The notes under the pieces are model-generated. The model was given only the letters and a program-made list of their open reading frames with translations. It made no database searches and was not told where the DNA came from. Of a stretch of DNA of 39,495 nucleotides, positions 13,016 to 36,133 are shown in pieces. Position 1 is the stretch's first letter. Each line of letters begins with the position of its first letter. This stretch comes from Thermodesulfovibrio sp. (lineage in GTDB: Bacteria > Nitrospirota > Thermodesulfovibrionia > Thermodesulfovibrionales > Thermodesulfovibrionaceae), in assembly GCA_025060075.1 (NCBI GenBank), contig JANXCZ010000027.1, positions 1-39,495 of the forward strand. The letters are read 5' to 3'. The translations under genes and the position numbers were made by a program.

Positions 13016-13564
13016 ATGACAAAAAGTCTTGCGGATGTCATTGAAGGTTTATATAAAAATAAAAGCACAGGAGTGTTAACAGTAATTTTCTCGGAAAATA
13101 AAAATCTTTTAAAGTTTTATTTCAAAGAGGGAGAAGTTTACCATATTTCCTTTGGATTGAAAAAAGGAATTCAATGTTTATATGAGATAAAGTTTGATAA
13201 CTCTTTTTCATGTCAGTTTATACCTCAGATTTCAGTTAATGTAGAAAGTGAGACTTTATCAACTGAAGAGATAATAAAATATCTTAAGAGTATGAATAAT
13301 TTTGTTAATTCCGAGAGTTTTTCTTCGTTAGAGTTTCAAAAAATAAAGGATGCCATAAAAACGGCGTTAATAAGACAATTAGGACCTATAGGAAGTAAAA
13401 TAATAGATAAATATATTGCTGAAAGATGGATTTTAACCACTCCACCATCTAGGAAAGATTTTTTTAATTTAATTAATTTTTTAAAAGATGAGATAGAAGA
13501 TCCTATATCAAAAGATGAGTTTTTAAACGAGGTAAGCAATTTTATCGAAAAAGAATATAAATGA
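13016..13564 (+). CDS. DUF4388/PATAN-like domain protein
   Basis: SLADVIEGLYKNKSTGVLTVIFSENKNLLKFYFKEGEVYHISFG resembles DUF4388/PATAN folds. C-terminal GPIGSKIIDKYIAE segment. Confidence 0.6.
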   Translation: MTKSLADVIEGLYKNKSTGVLTVIFSENKNLLKFYFKEGEVYHISFGLKKGIQCLYEIKFDNSFSCQFIPQISVNVESETLSTEEIIKYLKSMNNFVNSESFSSLEFQKIKDAIKTALIRQLGPIGSKIIDKYIAERWILTTPPSRKDFFNLINFLKDEIEDPISKDEFLNEVSNFIEKEYK

Positions 13565-14691
13565 AAAGAGAGTTTGGGCTAAAAACTGTTACCTCTTTTA
13601 TTTTGTTAACAATACTAATCTTTGCTGAGGTTTTGATGGTTGCTTTTAATTTTATTATTCAAATAAAACTCCTAAAAGAAGAGGAAAAACGAACAGTGGA
13701 ATCATCTATTAAGACAATAAATGTTTTTATTGATAGTGCTAAAATTTATTATCATCAGATGGCTTCTTTAGTTACTCATCTTCCTGAGATTCAAGAGGCT
13801 GTTAGTAAAAAAGATAGAAATTTTTTAATAGATAGATTCCTACCTGCTTTTAATTACTTAAAAGAAAACTTTGGTATTACTCAGTTTCATTTTCATATAC
13901 CTCCTACAGTTTCTTTTCTTAGACTTCATGACATAGAGAACTTTGGCGATGACATCTCAAGGGATCGTAAAACTGTGGTTCAAGTAGAAAAAACACGAAA
14001 AGGCTTAAGAGGCATTGAGGTAGATCGTGATGGATTGGGAGTAAGAGGAGTTGAACCTATTTTTTACAGAGGTAACTATGTAGGAAGTGTTGAGTTTGGT
14101 GGAGGATTAAAAAAAGAGATTGAGCAAATTAAAAAAGCAATAGATGCTGAAGTAGGATTAGTTTTATATAAAGATTTACTTTCCGGCTGGAGTGGTTTAA
14201 AGGATTTAAAATATAACTTTGGAGAATGGGTTTCCCTTTATTTTACTGCAAACGAACCTAATATGTTTATTTCTGAAGCTTCCTTAAGAAAAGCCTCTCA
14301 GTCTGAGGATAAGTATTATGTTGAAAAGCTTTCTAAATTAGGAAAAGAATATAATGTCGTTTATAGCCCTTTTAAAGATTTTTCAGGTAAAACAATAGGT
14401 TTTATATATTTTGTTAAAGAAAGTATAATAAGTCCCGTTAAGATTTTTAAAATTCTTGGTATAAATATCATGTTTTGTATTATAATCCTTATAGTTACTT
14501 TTTTATTAGCAAAATTTATGATGAATAAATATTTAATAAATCCATTGGTGAGGATTGTAAGAATCACAGAGGAGATATCAATGGGTAAAGTATCTCAAAA
14601 ATTAGAAGTTAAGAATGCAGTGGAAGAAATAGCTATTTTAGGGAAATCCATTGAAAGAATACGTATTACGATGAAAAGACTTCTTGACTAA
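13561..14691 (+). CDS. membrane sensor: TM - double Cache (dCache_3-like) - TM - HAMP, no output domain
   Basis: FHFHIPPTVSFLRLHDIENFGDDISRDRKTVVQVEKTRKGLRGIEVDRDGLGVRGVEPI...VGSVEFGGGL Cache signature. Second TM then NKYLINPLVRIVRITEEISMGKVSQKLEV HAMP. Stops right after HAMP. Confidence 0.82.
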   Translation: MKREFGLKTVTSFILLTILIFAEVLMVAFNFIIQIKLLKEEEKRTVESSIKTINVFIDSAKIYYHQMASLVTHLPEIQEAVSKKDRNFLIDRFLPAFNYLKENFGITQFHFHIPPTVSFLRLHDIENFGDDISRDRKTVVQVEKTRKGLRGIEVDRDGLGVRGVEPIFYRGNYVGSVEFGGGLKKEIEQIKKAIDAEVGLVLYKDLLSGWSGLKDLKYNFGEWVSLYFTANEPNMFISEASLRKASQSEDKYYVEKLSKLGKEYNVVYSPFKDFSGKTIGFIYFVKESIISPVKIFKILGINIMFCIIILIVTFLLAKFMMNKYLINPLVRIVRITEEISMGKVSQKLEVKNAVEEIAILGKSIERIRITMKRLLD

Positions 14692-14702: not shown

Positions 14703-15890
14703 ATGGAAAAAGAAAAAATTTTAGTGATAGATGATAGTCCTCTTGTAAGAAAGCTTGCAGAGGTTGCTTTACAAGAAGCAGATTATGAGGTTTATACAGC
14801 TGCTGATGCAGAAGAAGGTTTGAAAGTAGCAGAAAGTATAAAACCTGATCTTATTTTAGTAGATCTTATAATGCCTAAGATTACAGGTTCTCAATTTTGT
14901 AAGATTATAAGGGAAAATGAAACTCTTAAAGATACTCCAATAATTTTGATTACAGGGAAGGGTGAAAGGGTAGGAGAAACATTTATGGAAAAATATCAAG
15001 TTTTAGACTATTTTATAAAACCCTTTAAATCTGAAGATCTTATAGAAAAAGTAAAGAAAGCCTTAAGTAAAGTTCCTGAAAGTATGCCTGAGGTATTAGA
15101 GATTGAACCTGAATTAGAGATAAAAGACATTGAAGAGATTCAACCTTCCTTTGAAGTTTTTGAAAAAGAGGAGTTGTCGTCTTTTAAACAAAAACCAGAA
15201 TCATTAGAGTTTTTAGAAGAAAAAGAGGTAAGTGACTTTATAGATGAGTCTCAGCAGTTGACAAAAGAAATTGATTTAGAGGAGGTTCAAGAGATTGAAG
15301 AACCTAAATTATTTTCTGAGATAGAAGAGATAAAACCTGAAGAAATAATATTTAAAGAGGAGAAAACTCAAACTGAACCAGATACTATCAAGGAAGAAAA
15401 GAGTATTTTTTCTCTAAGTGAGGTAGAAGCACTAATAGATGATAAATTTAAAGAATTCTATGAAAAAATTCTAGATGTTATTAATATATCCTTAGAAGGA
15501 GTATTAAAAAAGTATGGATTTATAAAGGATTCTTCCACAGTTCTTTCAGGAGATTTGAGATTTTTAAAGCTTCAAGAGATTTTTTCTTTAATAAGTTCCA
15601 ATGGTTTAAATGGGATTTTAACTGTTTTTGGTAAAAAAGACATCTATGAGTTTTTATTTATAAATGGAAGAATTATTTATGGAGTTTCAAATTTTCAAAA
15701 ATATAAAGTTGGTTTTAAACTACTAAATGAAATTCCTCAAGACCGGATTAAGACTATCACGATTGAGACTATAAATGCTATTAGGGAGTCTGAAATTGAA
15801 AAGTTTGTCTTTGAGATAAGGGATTTTTCAGAAAATTGGTTATTAAATAGAGAAAGTTTTGATCCTTCAGAGCTTTTTAAAGAAGTATAA
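14703..15890 (+). CDS. response regulator: receiver - acidic linker - DUF4388/PATAN-like C-terminus
   Basis: ILVIDDSPLVRKLAE, ILVDLIMPKITG, ILITGKGE, YFIKPF receiver residues intact. Glu-rich linker. C-terminal SGDLRFLKLQEIFSLISSNGLNGILTVFGKKDIYEFLFINGRIIYG. Confidence 0.85.
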   Translation: MEKEKILVIDDSPLVRKLAEVALQEADYEVYTAADAEEGLKVAESIKPDLILVDLIMPKITGSQFCKIIRENETLKDTPIILITGKGERVGETFMEKYQVLDYFIKPFKSEDLIEKVKKALSKVPESMPEVLEIEPELEIKDIEEIQPSFEVFEKEELSSFKQKPESLEFLEEKEVSDFIDESQQLTKEIDLEEVQEIEEPKLFSEIEEIKPEEIIFKEEKTQTEPDTIKEEKSIFSLSEVEALIDDKFKEFYEKILDVINISLEGVLKKYGFIKDSSTVLSGDLRFLKLQEIFSLISSNGLNGILTVFGKKDIYEFLFINGRIIYGVSNFQKYKVGFKLLNEIPQDRIKTITIETINAIRESEIEKFVFEIRDFSENWLLNRESFDPSELFKEV

Positions 15891-15913: not shown

Positions 15914-16333
15914 TTGGTGGCAATAAAAATGAATGAAGAAAAAAAGGAAACAGAAAAGTTTTATTGCGTTTTTGGTGTAGGAGAGAGAGAGTTTTTGATT
16001 CCGAAAGAAAATGTTATACAAATTTTAGATGTTACAAAGATATTTCCCATACCTGGAGCGCCAGACTACGTTGTAGGTGCATTACCTGTCAAGGGTAAGA
16101 TATTTCCTGCAGTAGATCTTGCCAAGGTTTACAATATTGAGAGATTAGACTACTCTGATAATAAACTTCTTGTTATTGAAGTAAAGGGAGAAAAAATAGG
16201 AATTTTATCAGATATTACACCTTTTTTTGTTAGTTTTGAATCAGATATAGTCTTAGAAGACTTTATTGATCCTGAAAAACTTTTTGAACAACTGAAAATT
16301 CGTTCTAAAGAAGAAAAAAAAGATGCTAAATAA
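15914..16333 (+). CDS. CheW-like adaptor protein
   Basis: FYCVFGVGEREFLIPKENVIQILDVTKIFPIPGAPDYVVGALPVKGKIFPAVDLAKVY matches CheW fold features. GTG (15914) or ATG (15929) start. Confidence 0.85.
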   Translation: MVAIKMNEEKKETEKFYCVFGVGEREFLIPKENVIQILDVTKIFPIPGAPDYVVGALPVKGKIFPAVDLAKVYNIERLDYSDNKLLVIEVKGEKIGILSDITPFFVSFESDIVLEDFIDPEKLFEQLKIRSKEEKKDAK

Positions 16334-18071
16334 CCAAGAAACAATAAAAAATTTTCTTTTAGAAGCTGATGATTATTTAAACATACTAATTGAAGGAGTA
16401 GAGGAACTTGAGATTAAAGGATATAATAAAGAAACCTTAGAAAGTCTTTCTAAAGTAGCTTATGCTTTAAAAAACTCTGCATCTAACTTTAATTTCAATA
16501 AAATTGTAACAGTATCTCAAAAACTTGAAGAGCTTTTTAAAGCTTTATTAAATGAGGAAATAAAATATGACAAATCCTTTGTGTATCAAATTAAAAATGA
16601 AATCAATTTAATTGAAACCATGATAAATGAAATATATAAATCAGGTAAAGAAAACAGTGAGATTAAATCTTTGATAAAGCATGAGCCTATAATTTTTAAG
16701 ACTCTTTTAGGGAAAGACAGAGTGAGAGTCTCTTTAAGTTTGATTGAAAAAGTCTATGATTCCTTAGGTGAGATTCTTGTTCAAAAAAATTTAATATCAG
16801 ACCGAGAAAAAATACTATTAGATATTGTTGGTGAGATCTCAGATAAAGTAGAAAAGCTAACGAGAGAAATAAATAATTTTTCAAATAGTTTAAGAGTTCA
16901 AAAAGAAAAGCAGAAAATAGAAGATATTTTGCTTGATGATTTTAAAAGTTTTAAGACTAAAAGAAACGATGAAAATCTTATTTTTCCAAGAAAAATTAAG
17001 GAAATTACGAATGATATGAAAGAAAGCATAGAGTCATTGTCTTTATTTTCTGAAAATCTTTTGTTTCACCTTAAGTCTTTAAACCGACAGATAGATTACT
17101 TAAAGGAGATTTTAGTTGAGATAAGTATGATACCTATTGGAATACTTTTGTATAAAGTCTCTGAAGCTATTAAGGAAAAAGCAAAAGAGATAGGGAAAAA
17201 AGTTGAGATAGATATTAAAGGAACAGAAATAATGATAGACAAGACTATTTTTGAGTCTCTATATGAGCCTATTTTTTGTATACTTCTTAATTCTATTCAG
17301 CATGGAATAGAATTTCCTCAAGAAAGAGTAAACAAAGGAAAAGAAAGAGAAGGTCATATAAAAATTGAGGCAAAAAGGCAAGGAAACTACGTAACTATTT
17401 CCATTAAAGATGATGGTAAAGGTATAGATGCTGAAAAAATAAAAGAAAAAGCCATACTTGATGGATTAATCTCTGCTGAAGAGGCTTCTTTTATGAGTCA
17501 AGAGGATATCTTTTCTTATATATTTGTTCCCGGGTTTTTAACTTCGGATGATATTCAAGGTGATAATGGAAAGGAACTTTATAATGTCAAGAAATTGGTT
17601 TCAAAAATTAATGGAAAAATAGAAGTTCTATCTGAATTAGATAAAGGAACTAACTTTATAATAAAACTTCCACAATCTTTAACTCTCAGAAATTTATTAG
17701 TTTTTAAATCCAATAATTTGGATTTTGCAGTGCCTATTGATTATATTGAAGAAGTTTTAATGGTTGAAGATTTTCCACAGGCATTTGAAGATGGAATTAT
17801 TAGATATAAAAATAAAGAAACTCCAGTAAGGGTTTTTTCAGAGATATTTTTATCCTTAAATGCAAAAAATCCAAAAAATGGATATATAATTGTTTTTAAC
17901 TTTTCAGGGATAAGAAAAGCTCTTATTGTTGATGAAATTTTAGGACATGAGGAAACAATAGTTCACAGTTTTGGTGATTTCCTTAAAGGCTTAACTCAAT
18001 ATTTTGGTTACTTTATATCCAGTAAAGGAACTCCTGTGTATGTAGTTAATCCTTTAAATCTATTCGAGTAA
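16323..18071 (+). CDS. CheA-like protein with degenerate HPt (P1) and partially degenerate HATPase, plus CheW-like P5
   Basis: P1-like AYALKNSASNFNF (His to Tyr); LLNSIQHGIEFPQERVNKGKEREG N-box; IKDDGKGID G1; APGF-like VPGFLTSDD; C-terminal CheW-like LRNLLVFKSNNLDFAVPIDYIEEVL. Confidence 0.85.
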   Translation: MLNNQETIKNFLLEADDYLNILIEGVEELEIKGYNKETLESLSKVAYALKNSASNFNFNKIVTVSQKLEELFKALLNEEIKYDKSFVYQIKNEINLIETMINEIYKSGKENSEIKSLIKHEPIIFKTLLGKDRVRVSLSLIEKVYDSLGEILVQKNLISDREKILLDIVGEISDKVEKLTREINNFSNSLRVQKEKQKIEDILLDDFKSFKTKRNDENLIFPRKIKEITNDMKESIESLSLFSENLLFHLKSLNRQIDYLKEILVEISMIPIGILLYKVSEAIKEKAKEIGKKVEIDIKGTEIMIDKTIFESLYEPIFCILLNSIQHGIEFPQERVNKGKEREGHIKIEAKRQGNYVTISIKDDGKGIDAEKIKEKAILDGLISAEEASFMSQEDIFSYIFVPGFLTSDDIQGDNGKELYNVKKLVSKINGKIEVLSELDKGTNFIIKLPQSLTLRNLLVFKSNNLDFAVPIDYIEEVLMVEDFPQAFEDGIIRYKNKETPVRVFSEIFLSLNAKNPKNGYIIVFNFSGIRKALIVDEILGHEETIVHSFGDFLKGLTQYFGYFISSKGTPVYVVNPLNLFE

Positions 18072-18077
18072 CCAGTT

Positions 18078-19514
18078 TTAGACTCTAAATTTTTCTGTTA
18101 GCATTATTAATTCTTTTGAACTTTCCTCTAAAGATTGAGAAACTTTTGTAAGTTCATCATTTATTTCATTTAGATTTTCTTTCAAGTTTTCCTTTATTTC
18201 TTTAAATTTTTGAACTGAATTCAATTGAGCATCTGTTATTTCTTTCTGTTTTAATACTAACTCATTGGTCTCTTCTGCTATTTTTTCAATATTTTTTATC
18301 ATTGATTCAACTACCTCAAAAACTACTTTAGTTTGGTTTACTGTATTCATTCCTTTTTCAGCGTAGTTTATTTCTTCTTCAACACTACTTATAATAAATG
18401 AGACTTCTTCTTGTATTAATTTAATAATCTCTGCAATATTTTTAGATGATTTTGCAGTTTTTTCGGAAAAGTTTTTAATCTCTTCAGCAATAACAACAAA
18501 ACCTCTTCCTTCACTACCTGCTCTTGCTGCTTCAATTGAGGCATTTAGAGCAAGAAGACTGGTTCTATTTGCAATATCACTCAGCAATGTTGATATTGTT
18601 CCTATATCATTTATTTTTTCTGAAAGAATTTTCATTCTTTCACTTATTTCTTGAACAACTTCTCTAACTAATTGCATACTGTTCACTGTCTCTCTAATTA
18701 TTTCATTGCCATTATTAAGGGCATTAAAAGCTTCTTTTGAAAAATCTGTAGTAGCTTTTGTTTTGTCTTTTAACTTAGATATAATTTCTGTAGCTTCTTC
18801 AATAAGCGAAGTTATACTTTCAGTTTCATCATCTTTTATTTTTGTTTTATCTTGTATTTTTTGGATTATATCATTTAAAGTTTCACTTTTATTGGTTAAA
18901 TCCTCTGCTGATTTTTTAACCTCTTTAACAAACTCACTCAAACTATCTGCTATAAGATTAAAAGCATCCGATAATGAACCAAAGACATCTGGAGTAATTT
19001 CTGCTCTTTGTGTAAAATTTCCTTCTGATGCCTGTGTCATTACTTGCAAGAATTTCATAATATTACTCTGCATTTCTTTCTTTTCTTCCTCTGCTTGCAT
19101 AAGTAGAGAGACTCTATCCATCATTTGATTTAATGTATCTGCAATTTTTTGAAACTCATCGCCTGTTTTTAGTCTTACTCTTTTTTCATAGTTTCCTTTT
19201 CTTATGTTTTCTATTGCATCTTCAATTAATGAAAGTGGAGAGAGAATCTGTCTTCGGAACCATAAAATATTAATTATTGAAAATCCTATCAATGATGTAG
19301 CAAAAACAACAATAAAAGGGCTAAGTCTTTTAAGATAATCTACCAAATCCATCTTTTTTCTAATAAGGTCTTCGCTAAAAAATTCATATCCTGTTATAAA
19401 AAATCCTGCAAAAATAACAAAAGCTAAGAAAATGGTATATAGAATGAATTTAACAAGAAACTTTCTATAAATAACTGATGTTTTTTTCTGTTTTACTTTT
19501 GATACTTCAGGCAT
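18078..19514 (-). CDS. methyl-accepting chemotaxis-like protein with minimal extracytoplasmic loop
   Basis: Two TM helices separated by about 20 residues, HAMP (LSPLSLIEDAIENIRKGNYEKRV), second HAMP-like segment, and MCP tip SLLALNASIEAARAGSEGRGFVVIAEEI. Confidence 0.9.
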   Translation of the reverse strand: MPEVSKVKQKKTSVIYRKFLVKFILYTIFLAFVIFAGFFITGYEFFSEDLIRKKMDLVDYLKRLSPFIVVFATSLIGFSIINILWFRRQILSPLSLIEDAIENIRKGNYEKRVRLKTGDEFQKIADTLNQMMDRVSLLMQAEEEKKEMQSNIMKFLQVMTQASEGNFTQRAEITPDVFGSLSDAFNLIADSLSEFVKEVKKSAEDLTNKSETLNDIIQKIQDKTKIKDDETESITSLIEEATEIISKLKDKTKATTDFSKEAFNALNNGNEIIRETVNSMQLVREVVQEISERMKILSEKINDIGTISTLLSDIANRTSLLALNASIEAARAGSEGRGFVVIAEEIKNFSEKTAKSSKNIAEIIKLIQEEVSFIISSVEEEINYAEKGMNTVNQTKVVFEVVESMIKNIEKIAEETNELVLKQKEITDAQLNSVQKFKEIKENLKENLNEINDELTKVSQSLEESSKELIMLTEKFRV

Positions 19515-34457: not shown

Positions 34458-35555
34458 ATGGGGAAGATAAAGATTGCCATTGTGGGTGTAGGAAACTGTG
34501 CAAGTGCTCTTATTCAAGGAATTGAGTATTACAAGAGATATAACTCATCAGAACAAGTTCCAGGCTTAATGCATTTTAATCTCGGAGGATATCTTCCGGG
34601 AGATATAGAAGTTGTTGCTGCCTTTGATATAGACAAAAGAAAAGTAAATAAACCTTTAAAAGAAGCAGTCTTTGCAAAACCAAACTGCACGAAGATATTT
34701 TTCCCTGATCTGCCTGATTATCCTGTTAAGGTTTCTATGGGTCCTATACTTGATGGAGTTGCAGAGCACATGAAAGACTATCCTGAAGACAAAAGATTTA
34801 TTCCAGCAGATGAAAAACCTGTAGATGTTGTTAAAGTTCTTAAAGACTCTAAAGCAGAAATTATGGTTAACTATTTACCTGTAGGTTCTGAAGAGGCGAC
34901 TCGTTTTTATGCCCAAGCTGCTTTAGATGCCCATGTAGCATTTATTAACTGTATTCCTGTTTTTATAGCATCACAGAATGAATGGATAAAAAAGTTTGAA
35001 GAAAGAAATCTTCCGATAATAGGAGATGATATAAAAAGCCAAATTGGTGCCACTATTGTTCATAGAGTTCTTACAAAACTTTTTATGGATAGAGGAGTTA
35101 GAATAACAAATACATATCAGCTTAATGTGGGTGGAAACACTGATTTTCTTAATATGTTAAATAGAAGTAGACTTGCTTCAAAAAAGATCTCTAAAACAGA
35201 AGCGGTAAAAAGCCAGATTTCTCATGACATTAGTGTGGAAAATATTCATATTGGTCCTTCTGATTATATTCCTTGGTTGAATGATAACAAAATATGTTTT
35301 TTAAGAATAGAAGGTGAAATTTTTGGTAATGTTCCAATTAACCTTGAACTCAGACTTTCAGTTGAGGACTCTCCAAATAGTGCAGGTGTTGTTATTGATG
35401 CTATAAGATGCTGTAAATTAGCTCTTGATAGAGGTACAGGAGGATTACTTATCTCGCCTTCAGCCTATTTTATGAAACATCCCAAAGTTCAGTATCCAGA
35501 TGAAGTGGCAAGAAATATGGTGGAGGAGTTTATAGAAGGCAAGAGGGAAAGATAA
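34458..35555 (+). CDS. ino1: inositol-3-phosphate synthase
   Basis: [69 protein letters not shown]. Confidence 0.95.
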
Positions 35556-35557
35556 CT

Positions 35558-36133
35558 TTGCTTAGTGAGAAGTTTGGCCATTTTTTAGATAAACCTCTTG
35601 CACCTTTAGCAAAAGCTTTTCCTGTAAATCCAAACATTATTACTTTTATCGGAATGGTTATAACTTCATCTTCAGGATTTGTAATACCTTTTAATCTTTT
35701 CTTAGGTGGAGTTCTTATTCTTGTAGGTGGAGTATTTGACCTAATAGATGGAATATTTGCAAGAGTTAATGGAAAAACAACCAAGTTTGGAGCACTGTTA
35801 GATTCAACTCTTGACAGAATTGCAGATGGATTTATATTTCTTGGTATAGCCTGGTATTTCTTTAATCTCAGTAATAATTTAGCTTTATTATTAACGATTT
35901 TATGTATGATAGCTTCTTTTTTAATCTCCTATGTAAGAGCAAGAGCTGAAGGATTGGGAGTCTCATGTAATATTGGAATAATAGAAAGACCTGAAAGAAT
36001 TATAATTCTTGCCTTTGGATGCTTAACTGATCTTTTGTTTACTATATTATTAATTCTTACAGCCTTAAGTTGGATCACTGTGTTTCAAAGAATTCTTTAT
36101 ACAAAAAAACAACTTACTAGTTTGCATAAGTGA
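35558..36133 (+). CDS. CDP-alcohol phosphatidyltransferase family (PIP/archaetidylinositol-phosphate synthase-like), TTG start
   Basis: CDP-OH motif DLIDGIFARVNGKTTKFGALLDSTLDRIAD; multiple TM; directly follows ino1. Confidence 0.88.
   Translation: MLSEKFGHFLDKPLAPLAKAFPVNPNIITFIGMVITSSSGFVIPFNLFLGGVLILVGGVFDLIDGIFARVNGKTTKFGALLDSTLDRIADGFIFLGIAWYFFNLSNNLALLLTILCMIASFLISYVRARAEGLGVSCNIGIIERPERIIILAFGCLTDLLFTILLILTALSWITVFQRILYTKKQLTSLHK

Follow-up and report, generated by a model that had tools for sequence, protein, structure and literature searches.

The window analysed here, 39,495 nucleotides, is an entire contig of a single Thermodesulfovibrio MAG (genome G000; 1.2 Mb, about 68% complete) and carries a chemosensory gene cluster. 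On the forward strand, the cluster begins with a PATAN/DUF4388 protein (13016..13564; its Pfam match falls slightly under the cut-off) and continues with a dCache_3-HAMP sensor (13561..14691), a REC-PATAN (DUF4388) response regulator (14703..15890), CheW (15929..16333), and a CheA homologue of 582 amino acids with the domain order P1-P3-P4-P5 (16323..18071), which is predicted to be a pseudokinase from Pfam assignments, a 16-way alignment, an AlphaFold2 model, and Foldseek matches. A convergent HAMP-MCP receptor follows on the reverse strand (18078..19514), identified by Pfam and synteny; its position is conserved across the genus. Near its hairpin tip, the receptor reads EEIKNFSEKT where the congeners have EEIRTLSEKT, and ARAGSEG in place of ARAGEEG. 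The sensor, assigned by Pfam, stops right past HAMP, with no MCP signalling domain or other output domain, an architecture common to the genus; in G003, G004, G008, and G013, it is reduced to about 275 amino acids. A promoter and terminator scan came out near the shuffled expectation and was set aside.

An alignment-seeded scan of genome contigs recovered relatives, where a protein-seeded one found none; the congeners that bear names in a second collection belong to Thermodesulfovibrio. The window CheA has orthologues in all 15 available congeners (47-58% identity) with matching gene order, placing it with the congeneric CheA by both synteny and similarity. The congener order is (thiE), PATAN, dCache_3-HAMP, REC-PATAN, CheY (121 aa), CheW, CheA-REC, and the convergent MCP. 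The window has this order minus the CheY gene and minus the CheA receiver, and thus lacks both the C-terminal receiver and the adjacent CheY that characterize the ortholog group. In G008 and G013, CheY is masked by an overlapping ORF and was recovered by search; the G010 cluster is cut by a contig end, no separate thiE ORF lies beside the cluster in G009, G012, and G014, and the G015 cluster is without the PATAN gene.

At the 3' end of the window CheA (18069..18077, forward strand), where a C-terminal receiver of some 140 amino acids follows in the congeners, there is only the stop codon (at 18071) and the junction with the convergent MCP, whose end is 6 bases away. The stand-alone CheY has left five codons of its 3' end behind: TTGGTGGCAATAAAA (L-V-A-I-K; 15914..15928, forward strand) lies directly before the CheW ATG and is a deletion scar that matches the end of CheY in two congeners, TTGGTAGCTATAAAA in G002 and ATGGTGGCTATAAAA in G015; in both of these, CheY reads ...(L/M)VAIKKCLKK at its end and overlaps the CheW start. 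The ATG at 15929, which fits the congeners, is probably the true start of CheW, rather than the listed TTG at 15914, and the codons upstream of it are a CheY remnant. Relocation of CheY was also considered and rejected, the best match in the available G000 assembly being the REC domain of REC-PATAN itself (40%), with other REC domains at ≤37%.

The CheA active site

Foldseek searches with the window CheA gave T. maritima and E. coli CheA as top matches, and Pfam detected HATPase_c (1.1e-14) and CheW (5e-8) domains, together with an Hpt match to residues 8-96 (E 2.5e-4) whose 21.7 bits lie slightly under the cut-off of 24.6. In the AlphaFold2 model (mean pLDDT 81.7, pTM 0.53), the P1/HPt domain (residues 2-107; 16326..16643) is confidently predicted as a four-helix bundle (4-32, 36-55, 59-76, and 84-107); P3 forms a long helical hairpin (138-267), and P4 and P5 are also modelled. 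P1, P3, P4, and P5, the core domains in a survey of thousands of CheA (PMC10782961), are thus present in one protein.

Comparison sequences comprised the 15 congeners, 14 order-level relatives, and 24 CheA of other loci from many phyla (53 in total). Positions 16455-16481 read gta gct tat gct tta aaa aac tct gca (V-A-Y-A-L-K-N-S-A), so that codon 47 (16461..16463) is TAT, Tyr, at the phospho-acceptor position of P1, which is His in 53 of 53 comparison CheA. The alignment column is clear-cut, as H-T-L-K-G is found in 15/15 congeners, and Y47 lies within the second predicted helix; His is likewise present in the 14 order-level relatives and in 24/24 CheA of the multi-phylum set. All 29 genus and order orthologs combine this His with a SGRGxG G2 motif, and the CheA of each congener has both the G2 box SGRG(M/I)G and the C-terminal receiver. 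Loss of the His is therefore particular to the window lineage; the idea of a genus-wide trait was rejected.

The losses extend well past P1. We defined 61 pan-CheA positions, each conserved in at least 22 of the 24 multi-phylum CheA, and counted losses per comparison sequence leave-one-out. The window CheA lost 14 of the 61, every one in an active-site motif; the comparison sequences (n = 24) lost between zero and nine, and the three closest congeners within that set lose three to six. Five of the changes are in P1 (R44K, H47Y, T48A, G51N, and H66Q). Alignments place L317I, H319C, R322L, and D326Q in the N box (residues 317-330, IFCILLNSIQHGIE; 17271..17312, forward strand), in which N323 and H327 are retained. 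S406L, S413G, G414D, R415N, and G418E, plus a two-residue deletion, fall in the F/G2 region (residues 406-418; 17538..17576, forward strand), which reads GFSTSDEIDFQSGRGMG in G002 versus GFLTSDDIQGDNGKE in the window. Of the four ATPase boxes, then, G1 (DDGKGID) is retained, the N box is partly lost, the F region carries S406L, and G2 is lost; ATP binding may still be possible because N323, H327, and the G1 box remain. Deletions in the gene amount to 20 residues net, all in frame, and the ORF is open. Judged from the alignments, the protein has lost residues required both for being phosphorylated (the P1 His and its neighbours) and for phosphorylating (the N-box Arg and Asp, and the G2 box), and its catalysis has very probably gone with them. 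It is a CheA by descent that, on its sequence, falls outside the functional definition of one.

REC-PATAN retains D10, D11, D54, T84, and K106 in the REC domain at 14703, which suggests that phosphorylation is still relevant downstream. The original prediction had read the P1 His as replaced by Tyr, its alignment as probably right, and the receiver at 14703 as keeping its Asp and Lys, and all of this agrees with the comparisons above; its further point, that the receiver would need another phosphodonor or a non-phosphorylating mode, follows from the absence of the His beside an intact REC. The single substitution that it described was correct but too small in scope, as the CheA receiver, the CheY gene, and the G2 box are lost too, and the N box in part.

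Constraint and relaxation in the cluster

Genus-invariant residues, counted leave-one-out, are unevenly kept among the window copies. The housekeeping gene accC keeps 284/288, CheW 48/49, REC-PATAN 56/58 (58/59 for its REC domain), PATAN 33/35, the sensor 35/47, MCP 118/153, and CheA 126/207, the deleted receiver being counted. By domain, CheA keeps 18/26 in P1, 21/29 in P3, 52/66 in P4, and 34/38 in P5, the CheW-like domain (17676..18068, forward strand; Pfam CheW 458-581).

Ratios of dN/dS on the window branch were estimated with a home-made GY94-type branch model of seven taxa, and all values are approximate, because the synonymous branches are long and changes near saturation. For CheA, omega was 0.215 against a background of 0.087, with both neutrality (2dlnL 25.6) and equality with the background (13.8) rejected. 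P1 by itself is indistinguishable from neutral drift (omega 0.32, 2dlnL 3.0), and P4 gave 0.24; P5 (0.107) was not significantly relaxed (2dlnL 1.3), nor were CheW (0.079) and REC-PATAN (0.118; 2dlnL 0.2 and 0.3, respectively). Omega for the sensor (0.216) and MCP (0.239) was raised, in MCP threefold above background, yet far below 1.

These values bear on a possible but rather doubtful alternative, slow decay, in which the whole cluster is relaxed, CheA is an early pseudogene still open by chance, and REC-PATAN and CheW persist via other pathways. The raised dN/dS of MCP and the sensor, as well as of CheA, fits such a course, as do the two gene-scale deletions, and the nearest available relative, G015, is also fast-evolving at the cluster. 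G000 and G015 separate from the other genomes (support 93) in a tree built from accC, fthfs, and thiE; the CheA branches of the two are long (0.58 and 0.65, versus 0.09 in G002), and their housekeeping branches are ordinary. The G015 CheA keeps the His and G2 box, and its CheY gene is present; its N box has R322I, and its CheA receiver (contig C22) has DE for DD and has lost the phospho-acceptor Asp to Glu (ITELEIP for VTDLEMP), in a cluster that also lacks PATAN. G015 may be an intermediate stage or an independent case. Against slow decay, the 582 codons of CheA contain no stop or frameshift despite the long branch, omega is far below 1 for CheA, MCP, and the sensor, and P5, CheW, and REC-PATAN are at or near full constraint. 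Had the excess CheA dN/dS arisen in a fully neutral period (14% of the branch), some 215 neutral changes should have accrued, for which about 8-11 stop codons are expected at 3.7-5.3% stops per change, by our own arithmetic that depends on the fitted branch length; none is present. Both this lack of stops and the omega below 1 speak against a recent full pseudogene. On balance, we consider that the window CheA has probably been kept as a working scaffold.

Possible modes of signalling

Our preferred reading, which we hold to be reasonably probable from the sequence comparisons, is that the window encodes a lineage-specific CheA pseudokinase, retained as the scaffold of a chemosensory cluster of the Pix/Tax-like type; REC-PATAN would either obtain its phosphate elsewhere or function without one. 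Signalling through a phosphate transfer of its own has probably ceased in this sensory complex. The pseudokinase would dimerise through P3, and P5 would dock CheW and the receptor, so that the protein would serve the receptor complex structurally or allosterically. Any output would then pass via REC-PATAN, which would receive phosphate from a different donor or be controlled through contact with a protein. A possible donor is a canonical CheA with the His and G2 box, found on contig C86 of G000 beside cheB and flagellar genes. For regulation by contact, there is a precedent in the light-dependent PixD-PixE interaction of Synechocystis, which involves a REC-PATAN protein (PMC5812497). More tentatively, the receptor-CheW-CheA complex may signal to REC-PATAN by conformation or sequestration without any phosphotransfer, the kinase-dead CheA being its obligatory structural core, a state that would have been reached stepwise with G015 as the intermediate and G000 as the end state.

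In the Pix/Tax clusters of cyanobacteria, PixI is the CheW and PixL the CheA. These phototaxis clusters further contain PixG (PATAN-CheY), PixH (CheY), and PixJ (MCP) (PMC5812497). A PATAN response regulator, CheY, CheW, MCP, and CheA occur together in the intact congener gene content also; the window differs in missing CheY, and hence the full gene set, as well as the CheA receiver, and in its predicted inactive CheA, and a type IV pilus output is here only putative. T2SSE (PilB/PilT-family) ATPases are encoded in all 16 genomes, and given those in G000, the output of the cluster may be type IV pili.

DivL of Caulobacter crescentus, in which Tyr replaces the phospho-acceptor His and function does not require kinase activity (PMC4211667), is the best analogue for a Tyr at a His site. 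By analogy with the binding of DivK~P by this pseudokinase (PMC4211667), the dead P1/P4 could bind REC-PATAN~P that owes its phosphate to a different kinase, and relay this information to the receptor complex; the intact phosphorylation site of REC-PATAN and the canonical CheA elsewhere in the genome are in keeping with such a role. We nevertheless regard it as improbable, as several conserved residues of P1 around the lost His are also changed (R44K, T48A, G51N, and H66Q), and DivL has a PAS-DHp-CA architecture in which the N, G1, F, and G2 boxes are retained, whereas the window protein shares only the Tyr, has the CheA architecture with P1 apart from the dimerisation domain, and has lost G2.

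Two CheA proteins offer partial parallels. In CheA3 of Cereibacter (Rhodobacter) sphaeroides, the kinase domain is non-functional and some of the HPt domains have no His (PMC10782961), but CheA3 keeps one phosphorylatable HPt, and its partner CheA4 supplies the kinase; no CheA4-like partner was seen beside the window CheA or in the available part of the genome. A second active CheA copy could sit in the missing part, since this is a single incomplete MAG. ChpA of Pseudomonas aeruginosa includes Xpt domains, which are HPt domains without His (PMC5812489), but its kinase is active, and another six of its HPt domains do carry His. The CheA survey describes His-less HPt only alongside functional ones, in CheA3 and ChpA (PMC10782961). 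In the literature searched, no report was found of a CheA in which a lone HPt is without His, the relevant matches being CheA3, ChpA, and DivL.

A sequencing or assembly artefact is extremely improbable: TAT and CAT differ by one transition and the genome is a single MAG, but the amino-acid changes are many and independent, three indels are in frame, and the two deletions are clean and lie within an otherwise syntenic contig, and the number and placement of changes likewise reject a lone point mutation. The original prediction had named His in the orthologs as its refutation, implying a recent mutation or sequencing error; all 15 congeners do have it, but the conclusion does not follow, because the loss covers the whole active site and includes two gene-scale deletions.

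The receivers and the kinase active site were removed together in one lineage, and G015 is possibly a partial stage. In CheA, kinase activity and array building normally go together. A natural example that has lost all its phosphotransfer parts, with its docking domain and CheW still under selection, allows a test of whether the receptor complex can function independently of its kinase.

Fourteen of the 15 congeners have a match to the main flagellin, at E values of about 1e-37 to 1e-40. It was not found in the available G000 assembly, possibly because of a gap in this incomplete genome; only one weaker flagellin-domain match lies on C86. Within the window, two neighbouring genes at 34458-36133 resemble, by eye, those for an inositol-phosphate synthase and for a CDP-alcohol phosphatidyltransferase, which would point to synthesis of inositol lipids.
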